NCBI GenBank assembly: GCA_027037705.1
Contig: JALVYZ010000042.1
Location: forward strand, 1-5,128
Direction of reading: 5' to 3'
Source of the DNA: a bacterium
GTDB lineage: Bacteria; DYJV01; JALVYZ01
DNA: 5,128 nucleotides
Shown here: in pieces, positions 567 to 5,128 of the stretch
Position numbering within the stretch: the stretch's first letter is position 1
Layout of the letters: each line of letters begins with the position of its first letter
Notes under the pieces: generated by a model
Told to the model about the DNA's origin: nothing
Database searches by the model: none
Seen by the model: only the letters and a program-made list of their open reading frames with translations
Position numbers and translations under genes: made by a program

Positions 567-1160
567 ATGGAAGACTACAAATACTCAACAATTGAAGAAA
601 TTATCAAAAAAAATTCTCACCTAAAAAATGAAGAACTTGCAAAAAAAATTGGAAAAAGTATCTCTTGGGTAAAAGCCTTTAAAGCCTTTATGAGAGCTGA
701 AGACAAAGAAAAATATAGAGATACAAAAAATCCAATTTATAAAGCAATTTATAACATTTGGATTAAAGACCCAAAAGCTCAAAAAAAAGAAGAAGAAAAA
801 AATTTGATAAAAAAACTACAACAAAAATTAGAAGAGTGTGAAGACCTGCTGGAAGACTATGAAAATGATTTTTTTGAGTGCAGTGACAAATACAAAGAAC
901 TTAAAGAAAAATATGACTATCTCTTAAAAAACCTTGAAAAAGAAAAAGAAAAAATTGAAACTAAATTAAAAGAAAAATATTCACATCTTGTAGAAGAATG
1001 GGTTGAAGCAAAACACCAGTTAGAACAAGAAAAACTTGAATACTATGGAATGAAGAACGAATATTACCAAGATTACCGAAAATTAACATTGACTATTAAA
1101 GTATTGACAATTATTAGTGGAATAGAATTTATTATATGCTTATTTAAATTTACTCATTAA
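567..1160 (+). CDS. HTH-coiled coil-membrane anchor protein, copy 1; candidate single-protein plasmid segregation factor
   Basis: I do not recognise this 197-residue protein as a named family. Residues about 8-44 form a helix-turn-helix, with LKNEELAKKIGKSISWVKAF matching the recognition region of ParB/Spo0J- and KorB-like HTHs. Residues about 72-172 are a long Lys/Glu-rich coiled coil with Cys91 and Cys105. Residues about 175-195 are hydrophobic, so the chain could be tethered in the inner membrane with its DNA-binding end in the cytoplasm. The hydrophobic stretch carries Lys178 and Glu187 and a Cys191, all kept in copy 2. An AGTATAA array lies upstream and a replication origin downstream. 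HTH plus coiled coil beside direct repeats recalls the one-protein Par of pSK1, which has no such anchor that I know of. Alternatives are a membrane-bound repressor or a copy-number regulator. The domain layout is confident; the function is inferred. Confidence 0.75.
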   Translation: MEDYKYSTIEEIIKKNSHLKNEELAKKIGKSISWVKAFKAFMRAEDKEKYRDTKNPIYKAIYNIWIKDPKAQKKEEEKNLIKKLQQKLEECEDLLEDYENDFFECSDKYKELKEKYDYLLKNLEKEKEKIETKLKEKYSHLVEEWVEAKHQLEQEKLEYYGMKNEYYQDYRKLTLTIKVLTIISGIEFIICLFKFTH

Positions 1161-1197: not shown

Positions 1198-1275
1198 TTA
1201 CCCCTTAAAATTCTCTCGCGTGGCTCAGAGGGGCTGGAAAGGGCATAAAATGAGCTATTTTTTTATAAGGGGTAA
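1198..1275 (+). ncRNA. Conserved structured element with GC-rich island; candidate RNA or nicking/origin structure
   Basis: A perfect 10-bp inverted repeat, TTACCCCTTA (1198-1207) and TAAGGGGTAA (1266-1275), encloses 58 bp. Inside, CTCTCGCGTGGCTCAGAG (1213-1230) can form a small hairpin (CTCT/AGAG). In unit 2 the next outer pair is C-G where unit 1 has T-G. The core 1213-1256 is identical in both units and about 57% GC in an otherwise very AT-rich sequence. No standard RNA family comes to mind. Conservation beyond that of the flanking coding coiled coil suggests selection on structure or on a DNA-binding site. It could be part of the transcript leaving the upstream gene, a small RNA, or a DNA element of the origin or transfer machinery. 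Confidence 0.45.
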
Positions 1276-1482: not shown

Positions 1483-1522
1483 ATGTTAGTCCAAAAGCGT
1501 TAGCTTTTGGCTCACCTATTGG
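1483..1522 (+). other. Perfect 8-bp stem-loop with conserved flanks (hairpin family, member 1)
   Basis: ATGTTAGT precedes CCAAAAGC-GTTA-GCTTTTGG (1491-1510), followed by CTCACCTATTGG. Unit 2 has two related hairpins at 4485-4524 and 4544-4583 with the same flanks but different stems that still pair. No T-run follows, so it is not a terminator. AGCTTTTG here could also pair with CAAAAGCT at 1533-1540. A folded single-stranded DNA or an RNA structure is the likely object of selection. Confidence 0.6.
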
Positions 1523-1644: not shown

Positions 1645-1672
1645 AAAAAGTCCGAAATTTCGGGTTTTTTTT
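1645..1672. terminator. Bidirectional intrinsic terminator before the iterons
   Basis: The self-complementary CCGAAATTTCGG (1652-1663) is preceded by A5 (1645-1649) and followed by T8 (1665-1672). In unit 2 the stem is one pair stronger (CCCGAAATTTCGGG, 4702-4715). It would stop transcripts entering the iterons from the left, and any antisense transcript leaving them. Its conservation implies that the region to its left is transcribed. Confidence 0.75.
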
Positions 1673-1677
1673 ATTTT

Positions 1678-1797
1678 AACTATGACATTTTCAGGGTAAA
1701 CTATGACATTTTCAGGGTAAACTATGACATTTTCAGGGTGTGAACTATGACATTTTCAGGGTAAACTATGACATTTTCAGGGTAAACTATGACATAT
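1678..1797 (+). repeat. Iteron array of the replication origin: five 21-bp repeats plus a partial one
   Basis: Full iterons start at 1678, 1699, 1720, 1743 and 1764 with core ACTATGACATTTTCAGGGT. A partial one (AACTATGACAT) starts at 1785, and a further AACTATG follows at 1798. A 2-bp TG insert separates the third and fourth repeats (1741-1742); the rest are exactly 21 bp, two helical turns, apart. Rep_3 initiators bind such repeats to open the origin and also use them for copy-number control by pairing of Rep-bound origins. The rep gene begins 64 bp further on. The last base of repeats 1, 2, 4 and 5 is A; in unit 2 it is G. Confidence 0.9.
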
Positions 1798-1804
1798 AAC
1801 TATG

Positions 1805-1839
1805 TCTGTCTTGACAGAATATCATTTTTAATCTATAAT
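1805..1839 (+). promoter_or_regulatory. rep promoter with overlapping operator-like inverted repeat
   Basis: TTGACA (1811-1816), a 17-bp spacer and TATAAT (1834-1839) match the sigma70 consensus exactly. TCTGTC-TT-GACAGA (1805-1818) is a perfect inverted repeat that covers the -35. It follows an iteron-like AACTATG, so RepB dimers could bind here and repress rep, as known for RepA/RepE-type initiators. Transcription would start at about 1846, only some 15 nt before ATG 1861. Confidence 0.8.
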
Positions 1840-1860: not shown

Positions 1861-2955
1861 ATGGCAAAATTCATTGAAGTTAATGGAAATTTAAAAGTCA
1901 GAAAAGCTGATTTAATAGTTAGAGCAAGATATAAATTAAATCCTTTAAGTTTAAAATTTATAACCACACTTATTGCAGGACTTAAAAGAAGTGATGATAT
2001 CAATGAAATTTATCAATTTAGAGTAAAAGATTTTAAAGAACTTACAAAATTAAAAAGAAAAGATTTATATTGGGCTGTAAAAGAAGCTCTAAAAGAACTT
2101 TTAGAAAAGCCTATTTATATACCAAAAGGTAAAACACCAGATGATAATAGCTTTTTAATGCTTAATTGGGTAGCAAGTGCAGAATATAAAGAAGGAGAAG
2201 GAATAGTTGAGTTTGAAATAAGTAATAAATTAAGACCATACCTTTTAGAAGCAAAAGAAAAATTTTTAAAATATAAACTTGAAAATATTCTACCACTTAA
2301 AAGTGGATATTCAATTAGAATGTATGAGATCTTAAAAGATTGGCTTGAACTTAATAGCAGATATGGAAATAAAGCTGAAAAAATTATTAAAGTAGATGAA
2401 TTAAGAGAAATACTTGAAATACCAAGAAGTTACCAATATGGAGATATAAAAAGAAGAATAATTGAAAAATCTAAAAAAGAACTAATAGAACACACAGACA
2501 TAATATTTGACTATGAAGAAATAAAAACAGGTAGAAAAGTGACTCATATAAAATTTATCATTCAACCAAATCCAAAAAAGAGCTTGCAGGAAAAGAAAAA
2601 AGCTCAAAATTATGATTTAAAAAGCCTAAAACACTTTGTATCTCTCTTAAGAAAGAATTATAGCGGAAATTATAGAACATTTGGATATAAAACAATAGAT
2701 AACAAAATTTATTGGCTAAAAATAAGTGGTGATGGTTTAATATATGGCACAGGAGAACACGGACTAAAAGATTTTAATTCTCTTGAAAGTGAAAAAATTT
2801 ATAAAATCTGGTATGAAATTGCAAAAGAAAATGAAGAATATTATGAACTACTAAAAAATGGTCTTGATTTTGAAGATGTTTATAAAAGAGATGCTGACTT
2901 TAGATTAAGTTTTAAGAAAATAATTGAGGAACTAAAAGAAAAAGGGAAAATATGA
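1861..2955 (+). CDS. repB: RepB replication initiator (Rep_3 family) with C-terminal extension
   Basis: This 364-residue protein binds the iterons just upstream and opens the plasmid origin. Residues about 10-115 match the first winged helix of Rep_3 initiators, including KADLIVRARYKLNPLSLKFI. Residues about 118-236 match the second, with the family's hallmark LKSGYSIRMYEILKDWL (146-162). Residues about 240-364 are an extra tail, beyond the usual 230-250 residue core, with KIYWLKISGDGLIYG in the middle and a charged helical end; I do not know its role. I chose ATG 1861 because it follows GAGAGG and because the in-frame ATG at 1789 lies inside the iterons, upstream of the promoter. The spacing to GAGG is short (2 nt). 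The stop overlaps the next gene by ATGA, so the two are probably translationally coupled. Confidence 0.93.
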   Translation: MAKFIEVNGNLKVRKADLIVRARYKLNPLSLKFITTLIAGLKRSDDINEIYQFRVKDFKELTKLKRKDLYWAVKEALKELLEKPIYIPKGKTPDDNSFLMLNWVASAEYKEGEGIVEFEISNKLRPYLLEAKEKFLKYKLENILPLKSGYSIRMYEILKDWLELNSRYGNKAEKIIKVDELREILEIPRSYQYGDIKRRIIEKSKKELIEHTDIIFDYEEIKTGRKVTHIKFIIQPNPKKSLQEKKKAQNYDLKSLKHFVSLLRKNYSGNYRTFGYKTIDNKIYWLKISGDGLIYGTGEHGLKDFNSLESEKIYKIWYEIAKENEEYYELLKNGLDFEDVYKRDADFRLSFKKIIEELKEKGKI

Positions 2956-4484: not shown

Positions 4485-4524
4485 ATGTTAGTCCAAGACC
4501 GGTAGGTCTTGGTTCACCTATTGA
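4485..4524 (+). other. Stem-loop, hairpin family member 2
   Basis: ATGTTAGT, then CCAAGACC-GGTA-GGTCTTGG (4493-4512), then TTCACCTATTGA. The 8-bp stem is perfect. Stem bases 5-7 differ from unit 1 on both arms, so pairing is kept by paired changes. Confidence 0.6.
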
Positions 4525-4543
4525 TTACTCTTTATTAAATCAG

Positions 4544-4583
4544 ATGTTAGTCCACGAGCGTTAGCGAGTGGTTCACCTATTGG
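4544..4583 (+). other. Stem-loop, hairpin family member 3, with tandem G-A mismatch
   Basis: ATGTTAGT, then CCACGAGC-GTTA-GCGAGTGG (4552-4571), then TTCACCTATTGG. Four outer and two inner pairs are Watson-Crick. The two middle positions oppose GA to GA, which in RNA or folded DNA can form stable sheared pairs. It starts 59 bp after member 2. The flank that follows (ATAAAATTTTCAAAAGC) matches that of the single unit 1 hairpin, so member 2 is the probable insertion or this pair a local duplication. Confidence 0.55.
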
Positions 4584-4728: not shown

Positions 4729-4848
4729 AATTATGACATTTTCAGGGTGAACTATGACATTTTCAGGGTGAACTATGACATTTTCAGGGTGTGAACTATG
4801 ACATTTTCAGGGTGAACTATGACATTTTCAGGGTGAACTATGACATTT
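4729..4848 (+). repeat. Iteron array of unit 2: five 21-bp repeats plus a partial one
   Basis: Full iterons start at 4729 (AATTATG variant), 4750, 4771, 4794 and 4815, with a partial at 4836 and AACTATG at 4849. The 2-bp TG insert again follows the third repeat (4792-4793). The last base of every full repeat is G. The shared core suggests that both Rep copies could bind both arrays. Confidence 0.9.
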
Positions 4849-4911: not shown

Positions 4912-5128
4912 ATGGCAAAATTCATTGAAGTTAATGGAAATTTAAAAGTCAGAAAAGCTGATTTAATAGTTAGAGCAAGATATAAATTAAATCCTCTAAG
5001 TTTAAAATTTATAACCACACTTATTGCAGGACTTAAAAGAAGTGATGATATCAATGAAATTTATCAATTTAGAGTAAAAGATTTTAAAGAACTTACAAAA
5101 TTAAAAAGAAAAGATTTATATTGGGCTG
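4912..5128 (+). CDS. repB: RepB replication initiator copy 2, 5' part; gene runs off the right edge
   Basis: The 72 visible codons give MAKFIEVNGNLKVRKADLIV onward, identical in protein sequence to the first 72 residues of the initiator at 1861; the only base change is a silent one (CCTTTA to CCTCTA). This covers most of the first winged helix. It has the same GAGAGG ribosome binding site. Whether the copy is intact cannot be told here. Two near-identical initiators on one molecule should cross-act on both iteron arrays. Confidence 0.88.
   Translation, partial: MAKFIEVNGNLKVRKADLIVRARYKLNPLSLKFITTLIAGLKRSDDINEIYQFRVKDFKELTKLKRKDLYWA

Follow-up and report, generated by a model that had tools for sequence, protein, structure and literature searches.

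The question raised by this locus is what kind of function could be served by a hairpin whose stem differs from copy to copy while the sequences on its two sides remain the same. The stretch of DNA that was analysed (5,128 nucleotides, referred to as the window) consists of two diverged copies of a plasmid unit of about 3 kb, and an earlier note had described in it three hairpins (1491-1510, 4493-4512 and 4552-4571), one in unit 1 and two in unit 2. A pattern search of the sequence confirms both the hairpins and their copy number. The relevant features of the window are the following:

567 to 1160, plus strand: ORF of 197 aa, 5' neighbour of the origin region
1218 to 1231, minus strand: CCTCTGAGCCACGC motif, unit 1
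1483 to 1521, plus strand: hairpin element of unit 1, ATGTTAGT-CCAAAAGC-GTTA-GCTTTTGG-CTCACCTATTG, with the stem at 1491-1510
1645 to 1670, plus strand: intrinsic-terminator-like palindrome AAAAAGTCCGAAATTTCGGGTTTTTT, between hairpin and iterons
1678 to 1796, plus strand: iteron array of unit 1, AACTATGACATTTTCAGGGTR-type, five full copies and one partial
1811 to 1839, plus strand: perfect sigma-70 promoter (TTGACA-17-TATAAT), ahead of rep
1861 to 2955, plus strand: rep, Rep_3 family initiator (Rep3_N and Rep3_C, by Pfam), 364 aa
4221 to 4234, minus strand: CCTCTGAGCCACGC motif, unit 2
4485 to 4523, plus strand: hairpin element, unit 2 copy a, stem CCAAGACC/GGTCTTGG at 4493-4512, loop GGTA
4544 to 4582, plus strand: hairpin element, unit 2 copy b, stem CCACGAGC/GCGAGTGG at 4552-4571, loop GTTA
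4730 to 4847, plus strand: iteron array of unit 2, recognised from sequence
4912 to 5127, plus strand: rep of unit 2, truncated where the contig ends

At 2-256 on the minus strand the contig start truncates the gene of a Gp49-like (HigB/RelE-type, DUF891) protein; unit 2 does not begin with an equivalent, and the contig is therefore something other than a simple dimer. The protein of the 197-aa ORF has an HTH-like N-terminus, a coiled coil and a hydrophobic C-terminus, and it matched no Pfam family above the cut-off. The CCTCTGAGCCACGC motif is also present in L006 (position 245, plus strand) and, as CCTCAGAGGCCACGC, in L007 (position 3854, minus strand), the two related contigs described below; in the window, L006 and L007 this small-plasmid motif (CCTCWGAG[G]CCACGC) is located 250-370 nt 5' of the hairpin, and in the window it sits between the inverted-repeat arms TTACCCCTTA/TAAGGGGTAA. 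The AT-rich origin region also contains a run of CG dinucleotides (ACGCGCGCGCGCGCGCGCGT) at 1577-1596, shorter in unit 2, which is a possible candidate for forming Z-DNA or a cruciform. The viral contigs that were searched contained no relatives of either Rep. Another contig of the window's MAG (C152, locus L021) is relaxase-bearing and has CTTTCCCTATTGCC repeated many times, in either orientation, beside and between its genes (at about 531, 709, 2090-2190, 2660, 2745 and 3385), including a large inverted repeat at about 2090-2190. The binning of small plasmids into MAGs is unreliable, and this bears on the host assignment of the window plasmid.

Each hairpin element is 39 nt long with a layout of 8+20+11, viz. 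a 5' flank which is ATGTTAGT in all three copies, a hairpin with an 8-bp stem and a 4-nt loop, and a 3' flank which in all three reads YTCACCTATTG. The stem letters given in the earlier note are correct, but the stem is longer than the 6 bp described there, as the flanking CC and GG belong to it. Perfect hairpins with an 8-bp stem and a 4-nt loop occur three times in the window (two are these elements and one is the CG repeat), compared with 0.4 on average, and never more than 2, in 200 dinucleotide shuffles. When folded as single-stranded DNA, the perfect members gave z-scores of -4.6 to -5.1 relative to shuffled sequences (-5.1 for unit 1), and copy b of unit 2, whose stem contains a tandem G.A mismatch and is identical to that of copy b in L006, gave a z-score of -1.9.

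The stem changes occur in pairs, with the tandem G-A in the third copy, as had been claimed. Across six members (three from the window, two from L006 and one from L007) 91.7% of the cells are paired, three of the eight stem pairs have changed on both sides, and the covariation score was reached in 3 of 500 shuffles; however, the close relationship of unit 1, unit 2 and L006 means that their counts are non-independent events, and the independent evidence for the paired stem comes from L007 and the wider family. Copy a of unit 2 and copy a of L006 are found at an equivalent position with an identical 20-nt spacer, whereas their stems differ (AAGACC/GGTCTT in unit 2 versus AAAAGC/GCTTTT, within CCAAAAGC/GCTTTTGG, in L006), and therefore the stem has changed in situ, pairwise. 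Judging from its flanks, the unit 1 hairpin looks like a fusion of the left flank of copy a with the right flank of copy b, as recombination between tandem copies would produce. On the plus strand the tandem mismatch is G.A, whereas on the other strand it would be C.T, which makes the plus strand the likelier folded strand. A minus-strand peptide (IGEP..GLT frame), which was noticed by eye, was rejected, as it has no in-frame start codon and both arms change together.

The earlier note had named a lack of other members in related plasmids as a ground for rejecting its reading, and such members were found. A scan for exact flanks in a genome collection with one genome per species (84,980 species) identified two further true members, in the contigs L006 and L007 only; the exact-flank matches in L005 (Cellulophaga) and L008 (viral) are due to chance, their interiors being unpaired and scoring about 20 bits, and BLAST of the hairpins against plasmids and phages gave nothing convincing. 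L006 is a 3,155-nt contig with an exact terminal overlap of 127 nt and it is therefore a complete circular plasmid of 3,028 bp, which also has two hairpins, a rep similar to that of the window and small ORFs, and which encodes no primase, loader or RepB'-type primase. It is binned in a MAG of a Desulfurococcales archaeon, and for this bacterial plasmid the archaeal binning is almost certainly wrong. L007 is a contig from a Campylobacterales bin and an otherwise unrelated plasmid, whose sole strong DNA similarity to the window is a 53-nt block, TATTTTTTCTTSAAATGTTAGTCC...CACCTATTG (51/53 identical, E 2e-20), which stops exactly at TATTG.

A covariance model built from the same six members, on which the unit 1 element scores 69 bits, was run on 392 Campylobacterota genomes and gave four weak matches besides L007. 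Two of these (L113 and L114) are intergenic hairpins, AAAAGTCC-AAATTTTGC-TTTA-GCAAAATTT-GGTTTACCTATTG, which reside in an integrated element that encodes a MobP1-like relaxase; the other two (L111 and L112) look like chance or coding sequence. Pattern matches allowing three mismatches in 398 genomes were at about the level of a reversed-pattern control and were set aside. A scan for the hairpin together with its flanks, covering 43 stretches (mostly relaxase neighbourhoods) and 25 Rep loci, revealed the same flanks with other stems in L118, L148 (AGTTC-AAAATTTGGC-TTT-GCCAAATTTT-GATTTACC) and L129/L130. With shuffled flanks, at least 4 loci were obtained in 0/1000 cases when up to one mismatch was allowed and at least 6 loci in 2/1000 with up to two mismatches; the loci outnumber the independent cases, since L115, L116 and L118 belong to a single element family and L129/L130 to a single plasmid.

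The signature of the wider family, AGKYC-stem-GRYTYACC, is present in pTet-type conjugative plasmids and in integrated mobilisable elements. L129 is a pTet-type plasmid, and 228 Campylobacter plasmid records match an 801-nt query taken from around this locus; at 11 pTet-type origins the block TAAAAGKTCAAAAATTTTAATTTTTGATTTACC is nearly invariant, and the DNA on either side of it has diverged. A 61-nt query from the pTet hairpin gave no match, probably owing to low-complexity filtering, and this does not count as absence. Among 15 family members the outermost pair alternates between C-G and T-A, more than one Watson-Crick type is seen at 5/8 stem pairs (the innermost register-dependent pairs being left out), and an ACC located 4-6 nt 3' of the hairpin is invariant. 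Stems of 8 to 12 bp are found across the family, and both flanks stay in register at the stem base. Judging from these short flanks, the window family and the pTet family may be related. Selection on a folded strand, which the earlier note had regarded as the simplest reading, is supported by the paired changes, by the variable stem length with fixed flanks and by the recurrence in unrelated plasmids. GNNA loops as a mark of DNA hairpins were also considered and dropped, since the window family conforms to this and the wider family (TTTA, TTT) does not. A second, sequence-variable hairpin is seen just 5' of the invariant one in the pTet-type origins L158-L161, L163, L129, L122, L124, L139 and L144; as aligned by eye, its stems (AAAATCAC/GTGATTTT, AAAATTGC/GCAATTTT, AAAATCGC/GCGATTTT and AAAATTATA/TATAATTTT) apparently also change in pairs.

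In the window, L006, L007 and most of the pTet-type plasmids checked the hairpin lies 5' of the iterons, on the strand of the replication gene, and members occupy one strand only of each origin. The distance from hairpin to iterons in the window is 163-169 nt (in unit 1 the first full iteron copy is 169 nt 3' of the stem); in the window, L006 and L007 the iterons start about 160-250 nt 3' of the hairpin, with rep next on the same strand, and in L158-L161, L129, L122 and L124 they start about 70-90 nt 3' of it. The iteron pattern used gave no match in L119, L139 and L144. In the integrated elements the hairpin is found at the element edge, near a repressor-like gene and a gene for an AAA_25 ATPase, and no iterons were seen beside it. 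The initiator is a Rep_3 protein (Pfam) in the window, a protein with no Pfam match in L007, and an AAA_25 ATPase/helicase in the pTet-type plasmids and elements, where the profile weakly matches RadA, RSF1010 RepA and T7-type helicases. As the initiators differ among the origins bearing the hairpin, the hairpin follows the origin and not the initiator. The element is absent from C242, a Rep_3 plasmid of the window's MAG, and from the Arcobacter and Nitratiruptor Rep_3 plasmids checked; hence it is not generally needed for a Rep_3 initiator and is not universal.

Of the functions suggested in the earlier note (an RNA, a single-strand origin or primosome site, or a REP-like element), the second fits best. 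The linkage and orientation to the iterons, the fold, the paired changes, the fixed flanks and the independence from the initiator point to an oriV-associated single-strand initiation (ssi-type) hairpin for priming or helicase loading, a reading to which we give about an even chance and in which the single-stranded state, the priming and the identity of the recognising protein are inferred. If this is correct, then the initiator would open the iteron/AT-rich region of oriV, and the plus strand thus exposed would fold into the hairpin, after which a replication factor (a primase, or a helicase loader or primosome protein) would recognise the stem base and both single-stranded flanks. Because the complete 3-kb plasmid codes for neither, this factor would be host-encoded or act in trans. 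DNA synthesis would start within the 3' flank, probably close to the invariant ACC. The stem would merely hold the two flanks together, and it would therefore be free to change in sequence and length, in pairs; as the flanks are fixed at the stem base and the stem is free, the reader probably sees the folded form. The conjugative relatives carry the hairpin in the leading region of the transferred strand, and there a second role could be to initiate synthesis of the complementary strand in the recipient. To our knowledge, it has not been established how the first primer is laid at Campylobacterota plasmid origins. We put forward more tentatively, as a possibility falling short of even, that these hairpins could constitute an undescribed family of oriV ssi hairpins (AGKYC-stem-GRYTYACC, with free stems), shared by unrelated initiators and read by a conserved host replication protein and not by a plasmid primase. 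If so, a portable hairpin common to vent plasmids, pTet-type plasmids and integrated elements would provide a testable handle on priming and a sequence signature by which unannotated plasmids could be searched for oriV; lying on the transferred strand, it would also be a candidate establishment signal after conjugation.

The same paired changes could, however, reflect a dyad-symmetric protein site, if at oriV the element is bound, as a duplex or as a cruciform, by a DNA-binding protein of the host or the plasmid (in replication control or host-factor binding). The position beside the iterons and the palindromic core would suit such a site, and a homodimer site would likewise change symmetrically. 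We nevertheless consider this explanation unlikely, as the two flanks, which are not symmetric, remain at the stem base although the interior ranges from 20 to about 28 nt in length; a protein reading both flanks in the duplex would thereby be thrown out of register, and one reading the hairpin would not. A structured RNA encoded at the origin (a leader, antisense or copy-control RNA) is also quite unlikely. The element folds as RNA too, and tandem G.A is stable in RNA also; however, the covariance models of Rfam 15 gave no match, no promoter-like site is present on the hairpin strand from 1100 to the hairpin, and plasmids whose genes are unrelated have the element upstream of their iterons as well. 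Further, the window 3' flank has no T-run, so that the hairpin is not an intrinsic terminator; only the palindrome at 1645-1670 qualifies as one.

After the 53-nt block was found, our leading idea was an orphan oriT for mobilisation in trans, with the hairpin as its inverted repeat and nic at the block end, TATTG, where the conservation stops abruptly. The block resembles the RP4 nic region, and related hairpins are present in relaxase-carrying elements. Staphylococcus oriT mimics also have variable stems, a fixed core 3' of the hairpin and 2-3 copies per plasmid (PMC4652767), a likeness which applies to MOBP oriT as well. However, the nic consensus of MOBP is YATCCTGY (PMC3772185), and in a MOBP oriT it is located 3' of an inverted repeat and adjoins the mob genes, whereas the window hairpin is without such a motif (no ATCCTG is present in the window) and adjoins iterons instead. 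The mobilisable relatives have canonical TATCCTG[CT] sites of their own directly upstream of the mob genes, 3-7 kb from the hairpin. In four of them (L115, L116, L118 and L148) a 9-11 bp inverted repeat is followed directly by TATCCTGC, 4-7 kb from the hairpin, and in L129/L130, C. jejuni L164 and C. upsaliensis L165 the TATCCTG[CT] is intergenic. Past ACC the pTet-type block is not conserved, and TATTG therefore cannot be a shared nic; the covariance model also found nothing in the 1.5-kb flanks of relaxases. Due to the separate canonical sites and the position beside iterons the idea was dropped, and we now regard it as very improbable. In each of these mobilisable relatives the hairpin is on the strand of the TATCCTG site and 3' of it, which places it in the leading region of the transferred strand, although the relaxases are related and this common orientation may be inherited and not independent. 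The suggestion of a REP-like element or HUH-transposase substrate spread by transposition, which the fixed flanks and the two tandem copies might recall, is extremely improbable, as the only copies in the 2.05-Mb MAG are the three on the window contig, at a fixed position relative to the iterons, whereas REP/BIME are dispersed chromosomal copies.

With regard to known systems, the nearest comparison for an ssi-type hairpin is RSF1010 ssiA, which has a 6-nt 5' tail, a hairpin at nt 7-27 and a 13-nt 3' tail, with a proposed initiation motif (GTG) at nt 31-33, 4-6 nt after the hairpin, and whose 5' tail and first base pair are contacted by the primase (PMC4434180). The element described here resembles the RSF1010/IncQ sites ssiA and ssiB (RepB' primase) in its size of about 40 nt, its place at oriV, its short 5' tail and its hairpin of about 20 nt; the 3' tail is of about 13 nt in RSF1010, and a conserved trinucleotide follows the hairpin after 4-6 nt in both, GTG there and ACC here. 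However, there is no sequence match, RSF1010 has one site per strand whereas the hairpin here is on one strand only, and the small plasmids encode no RepB'-type primase, their initiators being Rep_3 or without a family match. A candidate IncQ ssi hairpin in pMS260 likewise differs in sequence from the window hairpin. The pTet-type plasmids carry a Toprim/DUF5710 protein in place of RepB' primase, and RSF1010 RepA (1g8y; E 0.0096 single, 0.00085 profile) is a weak match for the AAA_25 ATPase of the mobilisable elements. Since the GTG motif, a second-strand site and a cognate primase are absent here, we do not assign the element to the RSF1010 ssi sites. The primosome/DnaG ssi sites of theta plasmids, such as pAMbeta1 ssiA (PMC5703833), are similar in being host-dependent priming sites beside a theta origin, but no shared motif was found. 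In the literature searched no description of the hairpin of pTet-type origins was found; in these Campylobacter origins the inner stem is all A/T, the outer pair is T-A and TATTG is lacking, but AAAAGTTC-stem-GATTTACC is present at the equivalent position, 5' of the iterons.
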